20,000 nt of DNA from Pigoraptor vietnamica (lineage: Eukaryota; Opisthokonta; Filasterea). The stretch lies in the NCBI GenBank assembly GCA_943704525.1, contig CALSCQ010002632.1, forward strand, positions 32,501-52,500, given 5' to 3'. Each line of letters begins with the position of its first letter. Within the stretch, counting starts at the first letter, position 1. The translations under genes were made by a program, and so were the position numbers. The notes beneath the pieces were generated by a model. It saw nothing but the letters and a program-made list of their open reading frames with translations, was not told the DNA's origin and did no database searches. Positions 671 to 18,625 of the stretch are shown here, piece after piece.

Positions 671-3600
671 TCATTCGGACGCCACAAGGGACCCCACGGC
701 CTCGGTGAGAGACACGGTGCGGCGCAGGAGGTCTCCCGTCGCCTCGAGCAGCTCGCGGCGCCTTCGGTCGGGCGCGTCGCTCCCCCCGGCCAGGTGCGCC
801 ATGAGGGCTCCGCGGAACGCCCGCGACGAGTTGAGAAAGGCGGAGAGGTTTGCCCCGCTCACTGCGTCGGAACGGCCCCCGCTGTGGTCGCGCGCACTCG
901 CGATATCGGTCGCGAGACGTTGGAAGAGCGCCGATAGCGTACCGGCCTCCTCCGCAAGCCGCACGGGGTCGTCCACGACGCGCGGTAGCTCGGACAGGCG
1001 TTCGCAGAGTCGGAGGCCCGTCTGGCGGGCCGCGAGTGCCGGAGATGCGGCATGCAAGTCCCCCGGTGCCGCCGCGACTTGCGACTGCGACGAGGGGGCT
1101 TGCAACTGAGGGGGTCGGCTAAGCGCGGGGGAAACTTGCTGTTTGGCGGTTGTGGGCTCCGACCGCCGCACGGCGCCAGGCCACAGCACGGCAGCGTCCA
1201 CTGGGAGAGGCATGGGCTGCGCGACCGCCGAGACCGCGGCATGTGGTCGCGCGTTGGGGAGGGACGGAGGTGCTGCAACGACTGCTGACACTGGCCTTGA
1301 GGGAGCCCGCGGCGAACTCGGGTGCTGCTGTCCAAGCGGCTGCGCAACTGGGACGGCGCTGACCGTGTTCGTTCGGTCGGCGCTGTGCGTGGTCGCGGCG
1401 GGTGCCTGTCCGATGGGTGCTGCGTAGACTGCGTTGTCGCGCGCATTGCCACCGGATGGCCGCGTGTCGGCCGCAATGGCCGAGCCTGACGCGGGAGGCT
1501 GGGCCGCAGCCGCAGCCGTCGCAGCCGCGGGAACAGGCGAAGCGGCTGCCTGTGGTGTGGCGGGGTCTTCGGATGACGAGTACGATTCGCTGTCCTCGTC
1601 GTCGTCGTCCGTGTACTCGTCGTCGTCGTACGATGCGTCGTCATCATCATCGTCGTACGAGCCGTCGTCGTCGTCGTCGTACGAGCCCTCGTCGTCGCTG
1701 TCGTCCGCGTCCGCGTCGCTCTCCGTACGCCCCGGCGACGCTGGCGCAGCGGGCACGAGGGGCACGGGAGGGCGGCTTGCGGGATGCGGGACTTGCGGGT
1801 TTGTCCCTGAGGGTCGTGCATTCGCAGCTGGTGGCTGGTTGGGCTGTTGCTGTGCTACGGGTTGTGTCGTCGGCAGCGGGGGCCTTGCACCGGGGGCCGG
1901 CTCGACTTCCGCGTGTTGCGTTGCGGGCACCGACACGGCCTTCCCGGGCGGTTGGGGATGCGGCGTGGAAATAGGCGCTCCTCGTTCCGTTGCACGGTCT
2001 GTGAGCGGAACAGTCGACGTAGGCGACGGCGGCGCATCACGTTGCGGGGCAGTCGCGGGCCCTGGCGGCTGCAGCGGTCGTGCGCGTGCGGCCGATGGAG
2101 ACCCGTCCAGCGAATCGTCCGACCCGCGTTCTCGCCCCGCGGGCAGCAGAAATGTCACACGGTTGCGGCCGGATCGCGGCGTCCCGTCGGTGTCATCGAG
2201 ACGCGCGTCGCTGCGTGCATTTCGGGCTGTGTCCTCAACTGAGGGCGCTGGAGAGGAAGGCGTGACTGCGGCGACCTGCGCCTTTGTCGGGCTTGCGCCG
2301 TGTGGTACAGTCACAGCGCGCACCTCATTCGCACCAGACGCGACAGTTGGCAGCGCGACGACAATTGGCGCGGCGGGCCGCATGCTTTCGGCGGTCGCCG
2401 CGTGCATTTCCGCTCGACGCATGGGCTCGTGCGCGCTGCTGTGCCCCGCACTTTCCGGCACTTCTGCTGGCGCCGACAGTCTGCGGGGAACTTCGGCGGC
2501 CCTCACCTCCATCGTCTTATCCTGCGCCGGCACTGCCACGACCGCCGCCGCCGCCGCCGCCTCCCGCTCGGGCTCCCTACGAGGCGACGGGGGCGTGGAC
2601 TGGGCCACGGGCATGTCCGCGGGCGCATCTGTCGCCCCTGGGGCGTCTGTCGGCAGGTGTGTCAAAGACCCCATGTCGCGGCTGCCCTTGCGCCGCATGC
2701 GCTTCTCGCCGTGGCGCGCGCGTGCCGCGTCCTCCGGAGGGATTGCGATCGCGGCAAGGATGGGCGAGTACGCCTTCCCCTTGGGGGCGGCTGCGTCGGC
2801 GCCCTCAGTTGTACTGCTGGTGGCCGCTGCAATGAGGCGCGGCGGTTCGGACAGGCGCAGTGTTGCGCTGGGAGGGCTCATCGGGCCCCGCGACGACCCG
2901 TCGTGCGACATGGCGACGGCCACGCGGAACGAGCAGAGCATGCCGGGCGGGGCGCGCGCAAACGAGGCGCGCGCGTCGAAGGAGAGTCCGTCGACCAGGT
3001 ACTCCTCGCCGTCGCTGCGCCGCACGACAAAAACCGCGGGGTGCGCATATCCCTCGGGCGGCAACCACGTTAACATCCCCGCCGAGTCTATCTGCGGCCG
3101 CGACGGCGGTTTGTCGGGGGCGGACTGTCCCTCGGCAGGTACTGCCACCACCACCCGCGCCTCGCCTTCCGCTGTCGCTGCGGGCGCCTCAGGCCGCTCA
3201 CGCCGCCGCTCACCCTTGCGCTTTCCGCGAGAGGTCGCCATGCTGCCGTCGGACAGGAGAGACTCACGGGACGACGTCGCCGACGACGGCTCGGGCAGTC
3301 TCTTCGCCTCCTGTTGGGGAGAGTCAGTCGGGTCCGCCGCCTCGCGTTTCCTGTCCATCGAGCGCGACGGGTGGTCGTGGTCGCCGTCCTCCGATTGCAA
3401 CAAACTCTCTGTCGCGGACTCGCCTGCGGAGCTCTCGTTCAGGACATCGCGGCCGGCGTCGTCCCGCTTGCCGTGCGCACGTGACCGTCGACCTCCCTTC
3501 TCTCGGCTGCGGGAACGCCGGCCCTCAAGGGCGCGCTCCGCCTCGGCCAGGCGCGCACGCGTGTTTTCCAGCTCGGCGCGCATTGCAGCCACTTCCCTCA

Positions 3601-4609
3601 CGAGTGCGGACGTGCGGTCGCCGTCGTCTGCCTCCGCACCCGCACGCGGCTCGGCGGCTGCCTGTGCTTCCGCGACGTGCCGCTTTTGTCGCAAGCGCTG
3701 GTCAATAAGCATCGACTCGCGTCGCCAGTACTCACGGTCGAGCACCGCGGGGCCATTGCCAGGGACGTGTCCGCCGTCGCCGTCCAACGAGGCTACGTCC
3801 CCGCCCCCCTCTGCGTCCCATCCGCTCGAGTGAGACGCAGCCGGCGAGGCATTCTCCGGCCGCGCCGCCGCACGCACTCTTACTGCCCTTCGCGGGTGCG
3901 ACAGGTCACGGGATGCTGCCGGCGGCACGGGTATTGAATACATGTGATCGACCTCTGCACTGTACAGCAGCTCATCGCCCTCGCCGTCAGTGTCGCCGCT
4001 GCTGTCGTATGCGTTCGTGCGTACACTGTGCACACGCACGGCTCGCTGCGGCGGCTGCGGAGGGCCAATCGGGGGAAACTGGGGCACAGGGGCAACTCTT
4101 CCGCGCGTGCCATTCCACGACGACGACGGCGACGAGGACTTGCCCCGGGCGACGCCGCGAGGCGCCCCCACTTCGGCATACGTCGAGCGCGCCTGCACGT
4201 GCCCGTGCGATCGGGCGAGGCTGGCTGCGCGCTGCCATGCGCCGCGCGCACCTGTTGCCGTCGATGGTCGTTTCTGCGACGGGCTCGGAAGGGCAAACCC
4301 AGGCCCCGTGCCCACTGCGGGCGCGAGGCGAAACCCGTACGACGCCGGCGAGGTTGCGGTGGCAGGCCGCACGGTGCGAACGAGGGCAACGGCACTGCGC
4401 GGGCGGGCAGGGGCCGAGGGCCGCGCCTTTGCCACACGTGTGCTCACATCCCTTCGGGTGAAGCCCGGCGAGTACCCGTCGGCCACGGCGCCGTGCGCGG
4501 CCGCCAGCGTGCGAAATGCATTGGGCACGCTATCCGCAAACGCGCCATAGACGCGCGCTTGCTGCATGGGGACATATTGAAAGGCGCCGACGGGCGAGAA
4601 TCCGTCCAT
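671..4609 (-). CDS. Large low-complexity protein with coiled coil, FN3-like domain and acidic run (1312 aa, function unknown)
   Basis: A single uninterrupted frame on the minus strand, ATG at 4609-4607 to TGA at 673-671. The frame stays open to about 4712, but the only earlier start-like codon is a TTG, so the ATG is preferred. I do not recognise the whole protein. Visible parts: a Ser/Ala/Pro/Arg-rich N-terminus; a charged helical, probably coiled-coil stretch at residues about 290-360 (VREVAAMRAELENTRARLAE); then an Arg/Ser/Lys-rich basic patch that could be a nuclear signal. At about 500-590 there is a fibronectin type III-like domain (GMLTWLPPEG, later FRVAVAMS and GPMSPPSATLRL). A Pro/Ala-rich linker follows, then an Asp/Ser/Tyr run at about 963-1015, and a helix-rich C-terminus (about 1195-1312). 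There is no signal peptide or membrane helix, so the protein is probably intracellular and possibly a scaffold. It is intronless although most neighbours are heavily spliced. Existence is likely; function is unknown. Confidence 0.75.
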   Translation of the reverse strand: MDGFSPVGAFQYVPMQQARVYGAFADSVPNAFRTLAAAHGAVADGYSPGFTRRDVSTRVAKARPSAPARPRSAVALVRTVRPATATSPASYGFRLAPAVGTGPGFALPSPSQKRPSTATGARGAWQRAASLARSHGHVQARSTYAEVGAPRGVARGKSSSPSSSWNGTRGRVAPVPQFPPIGPPQPPQRAVRVHSVRTNAYDSSGDTDGEGDELLYSAEVDHMYSIPVPPAASRDLSHPRRAVRVRAAARPENASPAASHSSGWDAEGGGDVASLDGDGGHVPGNGPAVLDREYWRRESMLIDQRLRQKRHVAEAQAAAEPRAGAEADDGDRTSALVREVAAMRAELENTRARLAEAERALEGRRSRSREKGGRRSRAHGKRDDAGRDVLNESSAGESATESLLQSEDGDHDHPSRSMDRKREAADPTDSPQQEAKRLPEPSSATSSRESLLSDGSMATSRGKRKGERRRERPEAPAATAEGEARVVVAVPAEGQSAPDKPPSRPQIDSAGMLTWLPPEGYAHPAVFVVRRSDGEEYLVDGLSFDARASFARAPPGMLCSFRVAVAMSHDGSSRGPMSPPSATLRLSEPPRLIAAATSSTTEGADAAAPKGKAYSPILAAIAIPPEDAARARHGEKRMRRKGSRDMGSLTHLPTDAPGATDAPADMPVAQSTPPSPRREPEREAAAAAAVVAVPAQDKTMEVRAAEVPRRLSAPAEVPESAGHSSAHEPMRRAEMHAATAESMRPAAPIVVALPTVASGANEVRAVTVPHGASPTKAQVAAVTPSSPAPSVEDTARNARSDARLDDTDGTPRSGRNRVTFLLPAGRERGSDDSLDGSPSAARARPLQPPGPATAPQRDAPPSPTSTVPLTDRATERGAPISTPHPQPPGKAVSVPATQHAEVEPAPGARPPLPTTQPVAQQQPNQPPAANARPSGTNPQVPHPASRPPVPLVPAAPASPGRTESDADADDSDDEGSYDDDDDGSYDDDDDDASYDDDEYTDDDDEDSESYSSSEDPATPQAAASPVPAAATAAAAAQPPASGSAIAADTRPSGGNARDNAVYAAPIGQAPAATTHSADRTNTVSAVPVAQPLGQQHPSSPRAPSRPVSAVVAAPPSLPNARPHAAVSAVAQPMPLPVDAAVLWPGAVRRSEPTTAKQQVSPALSRPPQLQAPSSQSQVAAAPGDLHAASPALAARQTGLRLCERLSELPRVVDDPVRLAEEAGTLSALFQRLATDIASARDHSGGRSDAVSGANLSAFLNSSRAFRGALMAHLAGGSDAPDRRRRELLEATGDLLRRTVSLTEAVGSLVASE
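1563..1720 (-). repeat. Imperfect GAC/GAT trinucleotide repeat encoding the poly-Asp run
   Basis: On the + strand this is a run of tcg/tca triplets broken by tacga and gcg units. On the coding (minus) strand it encodes Asp tracts separated by Gly-Ser-Tyr or Ala-Ser-Tyr spacers, ending in a Glu/Ser/Tyr patch. The repeated D-run plus GSY/ASY unit looks like local triplet expansion and duplication. It probably varies in length between strains. Confidence 0.75.
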
Positions 4610-5094
4610 CCCCAAGATTAGGCTGCGGCGGCCGCCAGGTCCGGCCTCTACGGACTGCTGCTGGCCGCGGCCCCCATCCAGCACGCCCAAACCACTTTGA
4701 CTCCCGGGTGTTCAGGGCGCGTGAGGCACCAGACGATTGCTGCCGTCCACCGCCCGCTCGCTGTGAGACGGTGTGCGAGCTTTCTTCAGAGCGCGTGGGT
4801 AGGTGCGATTGCAGAGTTGAAGTCTGGTGGCCCAAGTCGCGTGTTTGCATACCGGACACGCGTTTCTATGGGAGCATGTACCGTCATAGTGATGTCATTA
4901 GTGCTCTCAGTGCCTGGTGCCGATTGTTTGAACCAAGCTTCCAATTTCTCACTGCAGAGCGCGATTTTTTCAATTCGAGAGTCCCGACAACGCGTGTCCA
5001 GTCCACCTCCAGCCTTGCCACCTGGACAATGGCCGCCGGTTTCGAACAGAAAGTGAATAAGGAGCCAATCAATCGAGCAAGGCACGCCGCAGCA
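4610..5094. promoter_or_regulatory. Divergent intergenic promoter region (485 bp)
   Basis: This lies between the ATG of the minus-strand FN3-like gene (4609) and the ATG of the receptor kinase (5095), so it must hold both promoters and both 5' UTRs. Its 3' half (about 4780-5080) is visibly less GC-rich than the flanking exons. A CRE-like TGATGTCAT lies at 4890-4898 and a T-run (gcgattttttcaattc) at about 4961-4976. No clear TATA box at a fixed distance and no convincing ORF or RNA gene. An in-frame ATG at 5029 could extend the kinase N-terminus by 22 residues. Confidence 0.5.
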
Positions 5095-8000
5095 ATGGCG
5101 CTGCACGGGGGTTTGCGCGGCCATGGCGCTGTTTCGCTGCTCCTTCTGCTTGCGGCGGCGGCTGCGCCCGCCCTGTCGCAGAACGTCGCCATTGTTTCCG
5201 GTGAGCGGCCATCTCACCGCCTTTGCGCAGTGCGTCGTCGTTGACTGAGCCACTCGCCGGGCTCACCCTCCTCTTCTCTTCCACGCATTCTAGGGTTCGT
5301 GACGGAGTTCAATACGCTGCCGACGGTCGGCTGTCGGCGCGCAATGGCCGAGTTTTACGGGCCTGGCAACGACGGCCGCTGCCAGTTCATTCTGACCAAC
5401 CCAAGTCCCGTCAACATGGCGTACGTCCGGAGCGTCGTTGCAGGTGGGGCTCTCGCGTGCGAGTGCACGAAGGCATCGCGGGGCGAGTTCTCGTTTGTCG
5501 ACTCCTGCCGTGACTTCCTCCATGTGCCTTGCACGCAAACACCTAATGTGTTAGGACAGCAATAGGTGGCAATAGCGGTCACAATCGCCATGTCTCGCAA
5601 TGTGCAAAAAGTGTGTGTTTGAGCGCCGGTGCATGTGCATTGTTGAGGTGACACCCTCTGCTGCGTCTACACAGATCCGCAGTACGCCCACGTCGTCTTC
5701 ATCGGCTTCTACTTTGAGACTGCGACGTACGCCATGGCCCTGGAGTTCCGCAACAAGACATTCACCATGATTGACGTCGGCTTGGACGAAAGCCAGCCAC
5801 AGATAGCGTTCCTCAAGCAGAACGTGCAGGGCGTCGTGTTTGCGGAGGTACATCATGTCATTAAGCAAGGGGTGTGCACGCTCACGTCGTCTCGCAGCCG
5901 TACACCAACGACACACGTGTGCTCCCGCAGCCCCCTAAATGCGCCCACTGCATGAGCCCACTGCATGAGCCCCATTGCATGAACCCCACTGCATGAACGT
6001 GCGCTAATGCGCGCGCTTGCGTGCTCCCACCCCCACCCTCTCGTCCATCCCTGACACGCACTCACACACCGACAGGACCAGTCCGGCTTCATGGCGGGCG
6101 TCGTCGCGGGCCTCATCACCAGCAGCTTCCGCGTGGGCATCATCAGCGGGACGCCCTTTGCTCCCCTCGTGCGCTTCGTCAACGGCTACTTTGGCGGCGC
6201 GCGTTACGTGTGCCCCTCGTGCCAGGTCTTCAGGGTGTACGTCAACTCGTTCGACAACGCGACGCTCGGAATTGCAGCCGCGGACTGTGAGTGGCGAGCC
6301 CGTGTCCATTGTGCGTGCGTGGACACTGCGCCTGCCCCACTGCGCTAATTGCTTGTGTGTCAGCGCTCATCCAGAGCGGCGTCGACGTCATCTTTGGGGC
6401 GGGCGGTTCGATGGGCAGCGCGGGCATTCTTTACGCTTCGGCGCGCGGCTTGTACGTCATCGGCGTCGACGCCAACGAGGCGCTGTCGACGTTTGCGGGC
6501 GCACCGGACATTCAGCTGTCTAAGGTGATAACGTCCGCCGAGAAGCGCACGGACACGGCGGCGTACCTCTCGATCATCGACAGGCTGCGCGGCGTGTTCT
6601 CCGGCGGCACTCGCGTGGTGGACGCGTCGGTCGGAGGACTCGCGCTCTCCCCCTGTCCGAACGCGCTCGCGTGCAGCGTGCTGTCCGGACTCGTGCCTGT
6701 TACCACCTCGACGTCTTCGTCGTGCGCCAAGACGGTGCTCGTTGACCGGCAAACGCGGATCAACTCGATCTTCGAGAGCATCAAGGCCCGTGCGCTCAAG
6801 ACGGGCACAACCGCGGACGGCTACTTTACGACCGTTTCTGACCAAGGTTTGTGCTGGGGAGGGCTTCGTGTGTGCGTGGTCATCCCAGTTGCTAATGCGC
6901 CGGCTTACGCGCGTACGCGACTGAGCAGGCGCTGACATCGACGAGTGGGCGAGCGTCAGCCTCTTTGGGCCCGCGATGCCTGCCACGAAGGGCCACTCTG
7001 CCACGCTTGCGCGCCACAACAACATTCTCGTGTTTGGAGGCGAAGTCAACGGAAACCCTTCCTCCGCGTGCCACGTGCTCCAGTTCGGTGTGTGACCGCC
7101 AAAAATTGCCACACGGTGTGTTCCAGCCTGACTGTGAATGCGGCCTCGCAGACACGCAGGAGTGGGCCGTGTGCAATGCGACGGGCGCGCCATCGCCGCG
7201 GTCACTGCACTCGGCCGTCGCCCACGGCAACCAGGTGGTTGTGTTTGGGGGGCGGTCGGGGCTCGTCATACTCAGCGACGTCATTTCGTACGACATGGGT
7301 GAGTCTCGCGTGCACACTCGGTAGCATGAGTGCATAGCAAGGTGGCTTCCGACTTAGGCCTCTTTGCCGCGCAGCCACTTCCACGTGGACGACGCAGCCC
7401 ACCAACATTGCACTACGCCGCTGCGAGCACGCCGCCGCCGTGCAGGGCAACCGCATGTTCGTCTTTGGCGGATCGTCCGGTGTTGTGTCCGACGAACTCT
7501 GGTGAGTGACAATCGGCTCGACTGCTTCCAGCCGCCTCCACTTCAGCTGATGCGCTAACGCTGGAATGCGCACAGGTCGCTCGACCTCCTGTCCTACACG
7601 TGGACGCAGGTGGTGACGACGGGTGCAATCCCCCGCGGCACACGGGGCGGCGCTCTCGTAGGGGCCGCCAACGGCACGGCGCTCTATTTCTACGGTGGCC
7701 TCTTTGCATCCGGGGCGTACTCGTCCTCGCTGTACGCTCTAGACACAGGTGTGTGCGTGGCCATTTCACGTGTGTGTGTGTATGTGTGTGTATGTGTGTG
7801 CGTGTGTGTGTGCGTCTGTGTTTGCGTTTGTGTGCACGTGGCTGTGTGTGCGCGTGTGCGACTGCATGTGTGTTGTGGGTGTCAGCGTGCATACGTGCGG
7901 CACTTTTTCCGCCCTGTGCCAACGTCAGCAATTCGCAGCGAGCGCGGCGTGGACGGCGCTGTCCCCAAGCGACCCCTTTGGTGTCAAGCCGGTGGGCGTG

Positions 8001-10498
8001 GCGTTCTTCGGCGCCGCCTTCTATGGCCAGGTCATGGCCGTGCTCGGCGGCGTCACGGCGGACGGCTCGGCGGCGGACACGTACTACTACGCTACCGGCG
8101 CGAACGAGTGGCGTCGGGGCCGGCCGCTACCTTCACCCACCAGCGCGCTTGCCGCGGTCGCCTTTCGGCAGACGGACGACCCTGCGGGCTGCGTGTACAC
8201 GCCGGCCTCGTACCTGAGCCTGTGCGTCATGCGGAATCGGCTGGCCATCGTGCGCTTTGGCGGCCTCGAGGTGTCCGGGACGGCCGAGGCGTCGACGTCG
8301 TCGGACGTGGACATCCTCTACGTGGGCGACGCGCCGCTCCCTGGCGAGCCCGAGGTGGTTGCCGTGACGAGTTCGAGCAAGGTTTGGGTCGTGGCCGTGG
8401 CCGTGGCGGTCCCTGTCGGAACGGTGTGCGTCGCGCTGCTTCTCGCGCTCTTCCTCGTGAACAAGAAGCGGCGCGAGATGCAGGGGAAGGCGCTCAACTG
8501 GATTGTGGACCCGAGCGAGATTGTCATTGGCGCGGAGATTGGGGCGGTGGGTTGTGTAGCTGTGTGTGGTGGCAGTGCTGTTCGCCCGTGTTGGTGGCGT
8601 CTTCTGATCAGGCCCAATGCGCTCCCTTTTGGTCGACGCAGGGTCGCTTTGGCACCGTGCACGAGGCGAAATTCCGGTGGGTGCGCACGCGGCGCCCTGT
8701 TGATTCGCCGTGTTTGCCTTGGTGAACTTGTCTGTGGATGCGCGTATCTGTTCGTCTGGATTTCTCGTTGAAAAATTGACGTCCGGGCTTCATGTTATAC
8801 CCGCAGTGGCACGCGCGTGGCGATCAAGCTGCTGCGCGAAAAGGAAGAGCAGGACGAGCAGGCCCGCTCGCTCGTCAATACGCTCACGCAGGGAAAGTGC
8901 GTGGTCTCCGCCTTCGCCATCGCGTGCCATCTCATTGTCTCACACTCCCCTTGCGCAGCTCGTCAAAGGCGGGGTGGACGGGCGGGAGCGTGTCGATGGG
9001 TCGCGCGATTTCGTCCATCATGAAGCGGGTGGGCCTGACATTCACTGCAAGTCCGCTGCAGGGTGACGCGTGCACTGTCGCGTGCTGTTCCGTTGACTCA
9101 CAACCATGCCATACTGCTTCCGCCCACTCGTTCTCTCCGCCGCGCAGGGACGCTCGCAGTCGCGAATGTCCGAATTCGAGCGCGCGCGTGCACTTCTCAT
9201 TCTGGAGATCGAGACAATGTGGGCAGTGGGCTGTGCGCTGCCTGCGTTGGTGCAAGCGATCGTGCAATCTGATTGTCGAAGGGGCGTTCAATCATCCTCT
9301 AATGTCTCTCAAAACAAGCAAAAAGCAGGCTTACGCTCTCGCCGTCCTCCCCCGCCTCCCCCGCAGGGTCACGCTCCGCCACCCAAATATTGTCCAGATG
9401 CTTGGCGCATCAGTCGACAAGCGCTGCCCCTGCATCGTGCTTGAGCTCATGTCGGCGTCCCTCGACAGCCTGTTTGACAAGGGCCCCGATATCTACCCCT
9501 GGTCCACCCGCCTGGCGTACGCGAGGGTACGCGTGCCTCTCACTTGTGCGGCGCTCGTTCTTCGCCCCTTGTTGCCAATCGATGCCTGCCTGAGTCAGCG
9601 GCCGCCCCGTCTTTCAGCCACTTCCCCTCGGCTGACCCCCCGTCGCTCGCAGGACATCGCCCTCGGGATGACGTATCTGCACTCCGCCAAGCCGCCCGTG
9701 CTGCACCGCGACCTCAAGAGCATGAACGTCCTCATCGATTATGCTTCGAACCGCGTTAAGGTCAGCCCACGCCCGACTCGTTATTGTTTGAGGACACTCG
9801 TCGCGCGTGGGTGGTGAAAGCACTGCTGGTGGCATATGGTCCTGCCTTTCGAGTGGCATCTTTCGTCGCCTGCGTGGCTGACTTCGCAAATCGTCCGCAG
9901 GTGAGCGATTTCGGACTCGCGCAGTTTAAGGTGCTCAAGCCCACCTCGAGCGCAATGGCGGCACGGCCGGTCGGTTCCTACCTGTGGATGGCGCCGGTGA
10001 GTGTGCGCACACTGACGCTTTGTTGTCTGTCTAGTGACCAAATCTATCGGCGCGTGCAGGAAATTTTCAGCGGAGAACAGTACACGGAGGCGAGCGATGT
10101 CTACTCGTATGGTGGGCACCTTATAGTCTGGACGAGTCCGCGTGCTAGGCCTAATCTCGATTGCATCACGCAGGCGTCATCATGTGTGAGCTGTCCACGT
10201 GGACGCGCCCCTATGCGGAGCAGCGGGGAGAGCTCATCCTCGAAATCCTCATGGTCCAGGTGGGCGAGTGGGTGGGCGAGTGTCCCTGTGCGTGCGCGAT
10301 GTATTTCCCTGTGTGCCGTGGTGCATATTCTTAGGGACTACTTCGCAGGTGACAAGCGGCTCCATGCGCCCCAAAATCGCCGAGGGCACGCCGGACGCCT
10401 TCGCGAGCCTGGCCAAGCAGTGCATGGACAACGCCCCCGCAGTGCGCCCCACATTCGCCGACATTGGCGAGGCACTCGCGAACATTGCGGCCAAGTAA
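5095..10498 (+). CDS. Receptor-like protein kinase: signal peptide, BMP/PnrA-type ligand-binding domain, Kelch repeats, TM helix, TKL kinase
   Basis: Proposed exons: 5095-5200, 5294-5443, 5675-5847, 6076-6286, 6364-6846, 6929-7087, 7152-7298, 7375-7501, 7576-7748, 7939-8546, 8642-8676, 8807-8896, 8959-9028, 9148-9218, 9367-9526, 9653-9760, 9901-9996, 10060-10111, 10174-10259, 10349-10498 (TAA). All joins are GT-AG and keep frame, giving 1084 aa. Domains: signal peptide (SLLLLLAAAAAPALSQ, ~14-29); BMP/PnrA-type periplasmic-binding fold ~30-375 (GFMAGVVAG, RFVNGYFGGARYV, GVDVIFGAGG, YVIGVDANEA, KVITSAEKRTD); five Kelch-type repeats ~385-680 (NILVFGGE, QVVVFGGR, RMFVFGGS, ALYFYGGL, VMAVLGGV); membrane helix ~725-750 followed by NKKRR; kinase ~763-1080. 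Kinase motifs are complete: glycine loop IGAGRFGTV, VAIK Lys798, LRHPNIVQMLG, HRDLKSMN (Asp941), SDFG (Asp960), APE, SDVYSYG and a late RPTF. HRDLKSMN and the C-lobe point to the TKL group, Ser/Thr or dual specificity. Inferred role: a plasma-membrane sensor of a small extracellular ligand, possibly a nucleoside. Least certain are exon 8959-9028 and the 9148 acceptor (9160 also fits, minus 4 residues). Confidence 0.88.
5943..5998 (+). repeat. Four imperfect copies of GCCC(C)A(C/T)TGCATGA inside kinase intron 3
   Basis: Four near-identical units of 13-15 bp occur head to tail (gcccactgcatga, gcccactgcatga, gccccattgcatga, accccactgcatga) inside intron 5848-6075. This is a small minisatellite with no visible coding role. 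Confidence 0.8.
7749..7881 (+). repeat. GT/TG-rich simple repeat in kinase intron 9
   Basis: The proposed intron 7749-7938 is mostly tg/gt dinucleotides broken by cg, ta and tt variants, beginning at the donor gtgtgtgcg. It separates the fourth and fifth Kelch blades. Its open reading frames (runs of Cys and Val) are artefacts of the repeat. Confidence 0.85.
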
Positions 10499-17287: not shown

Positions 17288-18532
17288 TTAGAGGTATATT
17301 TTTCGCAAGTCAGGTGGCGCCGTGATCGTGTTGCACTGCGGACACAACCGCTTGACGCCGAGCGTCTGCAACCAGCACCGCTCGCAGTGCACGTGCCAGC
17401 ACAGCACAGACACGAGCGGCTGCGCGTATCGCTCCATGCAGATCAGGCACCGCGGCGTCCCTGCGCTGCTCGCATTCGACGCCGCCTCCAGCTCTCGTAT
17501 GCGCGACTTGAGGCTCGCAATGACCACCGCAGCGCCCGTCCCAGCGACACCCGCGTCGCCCTCCCCCGTCCCCAGCACTGCGCCCGACGGTGGCACGTGA
17601 CCGTACTCGGCCTCTTCGTCCAACCTCACTATCGAATCCTCGCCGTACTGCGCCTCGCCAAATTGCGCCGTCGCGTCGTCGTCCACGTCAATGTCGGCGT
17701 CCTCGTCGCTGTCGACGCGCGCGCGTTTCGCACCGCTTCTCCCGGCCGCGCTCCCGCTGCTGTGCACGCCGGGCGCCGCATTCGCAAACCCCCCGACAAC
17801 CATGGTCGACGCTCGCACGCGCGTCTGTCCCGCCCACGAATACACCTCGTACTGCTCCGAGTCCTCCCCCGCCGCGTGCTGACTGCCCGCCACTGGCTCC
17901 CCGCGCGGCGCACCCCCCGCAGCCAAGCACCCGTCCACATGCGCATTAATGTCCGCCTCGTTACCTCGCACAATGTCGCCGCAAATTGGACATCGCGGAA
18001 TAATCTCGCATTCCATAGCCTCGGCTTCTGCAGACGCCGCTGCCGAGCGACGTCGCCGTCCCCCACGCCCCTCGAGCCGTTCCCGCCGGCCCTTCCGCGC
18101 GCGCCGCAGCACCTCCAAACAACGCAACGAAGCTGCCGACTGCGCACCCGCCGAGCCATCTGCGAGCGCCATTTCCGCGTCAAAGTCCTCGTCTGGTCGG
18201 TCGCGTGGTCGCAGGCCGTTGCTGCGCAGTTGGATGGCCTGCGAGTGCACGAGCCGCCGTGCGTTGAGCGCTGCGCCCCTTTTCCCGCTGGCCGCCTGCG
18301 GCAAATCGCGCTCAGCATCGCTCTTTGCGCGCGCAACCGCCGCCACTGGGTCGCGGAGTCTTGCCAATTCGAGCGCATAGTGGGCCTCATACTCGCCCGG
18401 CGGCAGGGGCGCACCGCACAGCGGACACACAACCACGGCGCCCCTTTGCAACCCCGCAGACGGCGCGCGGCGTGGTGCCGGTCCATCCGCGGCAGACCGC
18501 GACGGCAGCGGCGCTATTGGGAGCACGTCCAT
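17288..18532 (-). CDS. RNF220: RNF220 orthologue, RING-type E3 ubiquitin ligase
   Basis: Single exon, ATG 18532-18530 to TAA 17290-17288; 414 aa (human RNF220 566). Known role in animals: an E3 ligase acting on nuclear regulators (Sin3B, Gli factors) and on beta-catenin stability. Seen: an N-terminal zinc-knuckle-like motif CPLC...EYEAHYALEL (Cys36, Cys39, His51), matching the CPIC...ELQEH motif of RNF220. A second CPICGD...NAHVDGC motif follows at about 179-200. The RNF220-specific block YSWAGQTRVRAST...GGF is at ~228-246, followed by the acidic block DSDEDADIDVDDD and QYGEDSIV. A C-terminal RING has Cys362, Cys365, Cys378, His380, Cys383, Cys386, Cys397, Cys400 with the family's exact CWHVHCE and LCPQCNTIT signatures, ending RKIYL as in animals. 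All eight zinc ligands are present. A basic KRAR before the acidic block may be a nuclear signal. The long animal N-terminus is missing. Divergent from the WOPR gene, 483 bp between starts. Confidence 0.93.
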   Translation of the reverse strand: MDVLPIAPLPSRSAADGPAPRRAPSAGLQRGAVVVCPLCGAPLPPGEYEAHYALELARLRDPVAAVARAKSDAERDLPQAASGKRGAALNARRLVHSQAIQLRSNGLRPRDRPDEDFDAEMALADGSAGAQSAASLRCLEVLRRARKGRRERLEGRGGRRRRSAAASAEAEAMECEIIPRCPICGDIVRGNEADINAHVDGCLAAGGAPRGEPVAGSQHAAGEDSEQYEVYSWAGQTRVRASTMVVGGFANAAPGVHSSGSAAGRSGAKRARVDSDEDADIDVDDDATAQFGEAQYGEDSIVRLDEEAEYGHVPPSGAVLGTGEGDAGVAGTGAAVVIASLKSRIRELEAASNASSAGTPRCLICMERYAQPLVSVLCWHVHCERCWLQTLGVKRLCPQCNTITAPPDLRKIYL

Positions 18533-18625
18533 GGCTGCGTGAGTGGACTTGCTGCGGGATCTGCCTCACGTAGCGAGAAGAAGAGGGACCCCAGCCCAAG
18601 AAAGCGCCAAACGGTCACTCGTTGG

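Follow-up and report, generated by a model that had tools for sequence, protein, structure and literature searches.

A 20,000-nucleotide stretch of the genome of the filasterean Pigoraptor vietnamica (GenBank assembly GCA_943704525.1, contig CALSCQ010002632.1, positions 32,501 to 52,500 of the forward strand; hereafter the window, in whose coordinates positions are given) contains a gene that probably encodes a single-pass receptor kinase, in which a BMP-type Venus-flytrap senses a small molecule and a TKL kinase provides the output. The gene runs from an ATG at 5095 to a TAA at 10498 on the + strand, and the spliced model of 20 exons encodes a protein of 1084 residues. Judged by its sequence, the protein is likely a small-molecule receptor kinase and a nucleoside-like ligand is plausible, while a specificity for purines is unproved.

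The spliced protein was scanned against Pfam, and the BMP, Kelch, and kinase domains that the original prediction had read from the letters were all recovered. The BMP profile (PF02608) matched with an E-value of 6e-27 and 94.9 bits against a cut-off of 24.1 (best stretch, residues 85-296), the Kelch profile PF24681 with 1.5e-50 (best stretch, 379-546), and PK_Tyr_Ser-Thr (PF07714) with 1.5e-46. ANF_receptor is absent from the 14 Pfam families listed for the protein. In sequence comparisons with solved structures, the ectodomain came closest to 7x0r Lbp (2e-18) and 2fqw PnrA/TmpC (9e-16), followed by 4pev, 6shu BmpD, the 6y9u/6yab chains called Lipoprotein, and then 9q1u BmpA, with the PnrA/TmpC/BmpA/BmpD/Lbp relatives spanning E-values of 2e-18 to 2e-11. 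The only NCBIfam match, to a putative B6-transporter binding protein, was weak (36 bits against a cut-off of 400). The N-terminus is a signal peptide-like stretch without a lipobox cysteine, the first Cys of the protein being residue 49. Six GG motifs (411, 460, 508, 559, 613, and 684; a GG pair at 543 was left out of the blade count) mark the Kelch region, and six blades are therefore likelier than the five repeats that had been predicted.

The Kelch region is followed by a single strongly hydrophobic helix at about residues 723-745 and by NKKRR, in agreement with the predicted membrane helix and basic stop-transfer; the ectodomain is predicted to lie at the cell surface. The kinase had been predicted to be catalytically intact, and K798, E864, H939-R940-D941, N946, and D960-F961-G962 are indeed in place. 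Its catalytic loop, HRDLKSMN, fits the pattern HRDLKxxN and not HRDLAARN, an insert of ∼50 residues lies between beta-3 and alpha-C, and the closest solved structures by sequence are CTR1 (1e-39), then MLK4 and TAK1. On these comparisons the kinase is a member of the TKL group.

The 19 introns, with a mean length of 113 bases, all have GT-AG borders and are in phase, and the in-phase exon set of the original prediction was borne out as one open frame. The exons are distributed as follows, where C422, C1200, and similar handles denote contigs of the same genome that carry paralogues.

Exon 1, 5095..5200, + strand: signal peptide and first BMP strand, residues 1-35; start aligned in C422 and C1200
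Exon 2, 5294..5443, + strand: BMP N-lobe with the remodelled base-reading loop (E40-F41-N42)
Exon 3, 5675..5847, + strand: BMP; D119 is the equivalent of the ribose-binding Asp
Exon 4, 6076..6286, + strand: BMP; F202 is the equivalent of the stacking Phe
Exon 5, 6364..6846, + strand: BMP; D249, K274, and cysteines 311/317/334
Exons 6-9, 6929..7748, + strand: Kelch repeats 1-4, with GG motifs at residues 411, 460, 508, and 559
Exon 10, 7939..8546, + strand: Kelch repeats 5-6 (GG 613 and 684), helix at residues ∼723-745, NKKRR stop-transfer, and kinase start
Exons 11-12, 8642..8896, + strand: kinase glycine loop and VAIK lysine K798
Exons 13-14, 8959..9218, + strand: alpha-C helix (E864) preceded by the insert, both of which align in C422
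Exons 15-20, 9367..10498, + strand: remainder of the TKL kinase (HRDLKSMN, DFG, WMAPE) to the stop TAA

Within the model, exon 13 (8959-9028) carries the most uncertainty. Another splice choice for exon 7 shifts the frame and was rejected; the acceptor 8 bases upstream keeps the frame and has a counterpart in C422.

The gene belongs to a family. Searches covered the window's own genome (32.5 Mb, 1395 contigs) and gave BMP profile matches in at least 28 places on 18 contigs, which collapsed to at least about 19 genes, with C1193 carrying two; Kelch matches were found on 11 of the 18 contigs. Seventeen regions were aligned to the window protein with a custom spliced aligner, which recovers the window model. 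The reversed DNA of 16 of these regions (C1200 was omitted for its masked bases) served as the control, with maximum scores of 187, 188, and 176 for BMP, Kelch, and kinase, respectively. A Kelch-type BMP scored above the control in 12 of the 17 regions, and the kinase was reached in six of the 12, namely C422 (BMP/Kelch/kinase 1534/1490/1020), C1349 (998/770/602), C542 (kinase 468), C712 (420), C446 (277), and C1015 (211), all of which repeat the BMP-Kelch-kinase order. In C1200, masked bases follow the first kinase residues and the kinase-only score of 169 is below the control; tblastn aligns the kinase start with an E-value of 1e-11. C1143, C126, C54, and C533 are cut by the contig end, and the Kelch score is under the control in the last three of these truncated loci (177, 164, and 141, respectively).

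Introns shared with the window gene in both place and phase number 18/19 in C422, 14/19 in C1349, 10/11 in C1200, 11/19 in C542, 7/18 in C712, 6/9 in C1143, and 4/8 in each of C126 and C54; few or none are shared by the most diverged members (C446 1/19, C1015 2/19, C507 0/19). Because C422 and C1349 repeat the complete domain order with shared introns, the window locus is, as far as DNA goes, one gene. Exon 10 is itself a single open frame that holds the Kelch end, the helix, and the kinase start. The claim of a single receptor-kinase gene therefore stands on paralogue order, shared introns, and this frame.

Ratios of nonsynonymous to synonymous substitution rates (dN/dS) point to purifying selection on the window gene, with values of 0.11 (BMP) and 0.15 (Kelch) against C1200 and of 0.16 (BMP), 0.15 (Kelch), and 0.25 (kinase) against C422. 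The comparison with the more distant C1349 tempers these low values, giving 0.42-0.68 from BMP onward at a synonymous rate (dS) of about 0.9-1.2. As a separate observation, similarity to C422 is uneven along the gene. BMP exons 4-5 (6076-6846) are 93% identical, as compared to 69% for exon 2 and 81% for exon 3, and dS is 0.45 for BMP, 0.71 for Kelch, and 1.0 for the kinase, which suggests gene conversion or patchwork evolution.

The ligand pocket was examined against what is known of bacterial BMP proteins. According to the accessible part of PMC13325309, Phe27 and Phe176 of BmpA stack, and alanine at either position abolishes detectable binding; Asp98, Asp225, and Lys242 are directed towards ribose, Asp19 and Asp24 lie on the polar face, and the specificity of PnrA is tuned by a short N-terminal loop. 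Matching pocket residues are listed for a model of P48 in the accessible part of PMC12892991. We aligned the window protein with the best 80 of 138 bacterial relatives found with peptide patterns. The window protein retains F41, N42, D119, F202, D249, and K274, and keeps 34 of the 48 BMP-domain columns that are 90% conserved in the 80 bacteria. Across 13 aligned family members, the window included, F202, D249, and K274 are present in all 13, D119 in 12 of 13, and F41 in 10 of 12. The mean pairwise identity of the five anchors (F41, D119, F202, D249, K274) is 0.93 in the family and 0.96 in the bacteria, and that of the whole domain in the family is 0.41 (C533 was omitted from all pairwise identity figures); none of 20000 random column sets was as conserved as the anchors. 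The base-reading loop behaves differently. Its columns (37-40, 42, and 43) have a mean pairwise identity of 0.18 in the family and 0.68 in the 80 bacteria, and the fraction of random column sets drawn from the whole domain that were as variable as the loop was 0.010. Anchors that are constant beside a base-reading loop that is variable suggest that the paralogues are tuned to different ligands, and we infer a kept aromatic and ribose clamp combined with a retuned base selector. In addition, cysteines 311/317/334 occur in 13, 13, and 12 of the 13 family members and in none of the 80 bacteria, which would fit a secreted, oxidising setting.

Several results weigh against a small-molecule sensor of this kind. 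The two bacterial aspartates at columns 36 and 38, present in 74/79 and 80/80 bacteria, are found in 0/12 of the family members that reach the loop (the window has G36 and V38), and N42 is kept in only 5/12. The distance from the first Asp column to F41 is 8 residues in 79/80 bacteria and 4 in 11/13 family members, the exceptions being C712, which is without the region, and C533, whose model is unsure. Given the lost aspartates and the poorly kept N42, it would be unsafe to presume that bases are recognised as in PnrA. The statistics also carry qualifications. When random column sets are drawn from the N-terminal exons alone, 0.057 of them are as low as the loop; the loop columns were chosen after the alignment was seen; in distant paralogues, the modelling of the N-terminal exons is less reliable; and the bacterial conservation of D119 is partly built in, because one search pattern contains that column. 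Finally, dN/dS against C1200 over a short kinase stretch (42 codons) is 0.60. The predicted nucleoside or purine sensor is thus upheld as regards the stacking Phe pair and the ribose-binding Asp/Asp/Lys, and weakened as regards the remodelled two-Asp loop.

The same kind of ectodomain appears to be joined to other outputs. C446 and C1015 encode BMP-Kelch-helix receptors with the tyrosine-kinase-type loop HRDLAARN, and the best solved matches of C446 are 9p9u, a 678-residue chain labelled EGFR (2e-91), and FGFR4 (5e-61). No DFG is recovered in the model of C1015, so either an exon was missed or the motif has been lost. We also observed a common C-terminal Y[IL]DLV tail in C446 and C1015, and, in C712, HLDIKSAN in place of the HRD loop of an otherwise intact kinase. 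Downstream of BMP and Kelch, C507 shows several hydrophobic stretches that lie in other frames and had no Pfam match, and its kinase score of 153 indicates no kinase; C507 is perhaps a multi-pass receptor. C619 is cut by the contig end and was not assigned to either BMP type.

A second BMP type is present in C1193 (two copies), C555, C1008, and C325. The BMP of C1193 is closest among solved structures to 3s99 (1e-20) and 6pi5 (2e-18) and not to PnrA, and therefore at least two BMP lineages appear to be in use. BMP is followed by an EGF-like piece, which Pfam matched in C1193 and C325 and which in C555 and C1008 was recognised only by eye. The first C1193 copy has a kinase downstream (aligner 329, tblastn 8e-4), and the contig ends after an apparent kinase start, seen by eye, in the second copy. 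C555 has a kinase score of 219 against the control maximum of 176 and no tblastn match. In C1008 and C325, a nucleotide cyclase (PF00211) follows a weak kinase-like stretch (aligner 233 and 186, respectively), for which Pfam gave 20 bits at a cut-off of 23 in C325 and no match in the C1008 frame; the linker in both matches HNOBA. Separately, G000:C1305:41920-45720 has Kelch matches and then 7tm_3 on the same strand, a possible Kelch-class C G-protein-coupled receptor (GPCR).

Our current hypothesis is that the secreted BMP/PnrA-type flytrap of the window protein would use its cleft to bind a small molecule from outside the cell, held probably by the aromatic sandwich F41/F202 and the ribose clamp D119/D249/K274, which makes a planar molecule, nucleoside-like or otherwise, the first candidate. 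Lobe closure would be relayed via the membrane-proximal Kelch propeller and the single helix, probably by a dimer rearrangement that turns on the cytosolic TKL kinase. We also consider, tentatively and with rather low confidence, a wider possibility, in which bacterial BMP/PnrA domains gave rise to a large modular sensing system with a constant clamp, a variable loop, and a nucleoside-like ligand particular to each paralogue. Such a system would comprise at least two lineages, a PnrA type with Kelch and an atrazine-binding-protein type with an EGF-like piece, and exchangeable outputs that may include a TKL kinase, a tyrosine kinase, a multi-helix part, and a kinase-like stretch with a cyclase.

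Other explanations were weighed against a flytrap that senses a small molecule. Kelch propellers often bind protein or glycan, and BMP and Kelch together could form an adhesion module without small-molecule binding, with the kinase switched by contact. The Dictyostelium class C GPCR fAR1 is presumably the protein also named GrlL. Its flytrap binds LPS (lipopolysaccharide) besides folate, according to the available portion of PMC5969738, and this precedent, like the missing aspartates of the base-reading loop, speaks for adhesion. However, the five anchors are the best-kept set tried (0.93; 0/20000), a degree of conservation not easily accounted for unless the cleft holds a ligand, and we consider an adhesion module unlikely. 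A surface protein that is constitutive or scavenges ligand, with a kinase that works independently of the ectodomain, agrees with a sequence that gives no sign of coupling. It is nonetheless quite improbable, as the same genome joins BMP ectodomains to TKL kinases, a tyrosine kinase, and cyclases, and such swapping of outputs typically marks a sensor.

The least credible explanation is an artefact of the gene model, in which a secreted BMP-Kelch gene lies beside a separate kinase gene. The model is indeed derived from DNA alone and exon 13 is weakly supported, but exon 10 is one open frame across the supposed boundary, the order and introns recur in C422 and C1349, and the order recurs in C542, C712, C446, and C1015. 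Two genes were rejected on the grounds of this frame and of the conserved order and introns of the paralogues, and we regard the artefact as very improbable indeed.

The BMP domain had been suggested to be of bacterial origin, to be checked by phylogeny. In our tree (C533 omitted, the second BMP type represented by the two C1193 pieces only, the bacteria by the best 80 of the 138 relatives found with patterns), the 12 Kelch-type BMPs form one clade (support 100/100) that adjoins five Chloroflexota/Actinomycetota sequences (98/87). However, the clade sits on a branch of length 3.33 that was flagged by the tree tool, and because this branch is so long a bacterial donor is not established. Contamination by a bacterial gene was ruled out by the 19 introns and the eukaryotic domains of neighbouring genes (WD40, RNF220/RING), and, as regards a viral origin, a single IMG/VR scan returned no relative. 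None of the five neighbouring open frames scanned encodes an ABC-transporter partner, the rest of the genome not having been searched for one.

Elsewhere in the window, an RNF220-like RING protein is encoded at 17291-18565 on the - strand (E 3.5e-30). The RNF220 family is known mainly from animals, and its presence may hint that the host is an animal relative. A 1346-codon open frame at 674-4711 on the - strand had no match in a Pfam scan at E 0.001; by eye it is low-complexity, acidic, and rich in proline and alanine.

If the wider BMP-based sensing system considered above is real, extracellular nucleoside sensing could be coupled to kinases and cyclases independently of the animal P1/P2 purinoceptors, perhaps for the detection of bacterial prey. 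Receptor kinases, at least one of them a tyrosine-kinase sibling, that use a bacterial nutrient-binding module as their ectodomain would lie outside the characterised systems that we found, and the pocket residues provide a concrete ligand hypothesis. The gene bears on two questions: how receptor kinases came by ectodomains for small molecules, and whether kinases let unicellular eukaryotes sense extracellular nucleosides. The original prediction knew of no characterised receptor with this domain order. The exact BMP-Kelch-kinase order was indeed not found in the literature searched, which covers few subscription papers, but BMP ectodomains and flytrap kinases have already been described. The main text of the Acanthamoeba genome paper (PMC4053784) contains none of the words kelch, BMP, or periplasmic.

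Among known systems, the seven helices of most Dictyostelium Grl family-3 GPCRs are preceded by a signal peptide and a BMP domain, as described in the available parts of PMC1885808 and PMC10445921. Grl proteins such as GrlJ are, like the window protein, eukaryotic membrane receptors with an N-terminal BMP; unlike it, they have a seven-helix G-protein output, and Kelch and kinase are absent from the layouts described in those parts (PMC1885808, PMC10445921). The window gene encodes one helix, and the contigs with 7tm_3 matches in the genome are all different from those with BMP matches. In the Venus kinase receptors (VKRs) of animals, a flytrap is joined to a tyrosine kinase (PMC3703292, accessible part), and the available portion of PMC4026697 describes a single membrane helix, as in the window protein. 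VKRs differ from it in their class C GPCR-like flytrap, which binds amino acids, in their tyrosine kinase, and in having been described in invertebrate animals. The window gene is therefore not a VKR, with its BMP flytrap of another family and its TKL kinase, and not a Grl, with no seven-transmembrane part. The ectodomain shares with bacterial PnrA/TmpC/BmpA/BmpD/Lbp the domain itself, the aromatic sandwich, and the ribose-binding residues, and differs in its receptor fusion, its extra cysteines, its shorter loop without Asp, and its lack of a lipobox cysteine. The kinase resembles the CTR1/Raf-like TKL kinases and is closest, among solved structures, to CTR1, from which it is set apart by the ∼50-residue insert before alpha-C; to our knowledge, CTR1 is not a single-pass receptor kinase. 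The siblings C1008 and C325, in turn, resemble the receptor guanylyl cyclases of animals in their order of BMP, EGF-like piece, helix, weakly supported kinase-like stretch, and cyclase, and differ from them in carrying a BMP domain instead of an ANF-type flytrap.
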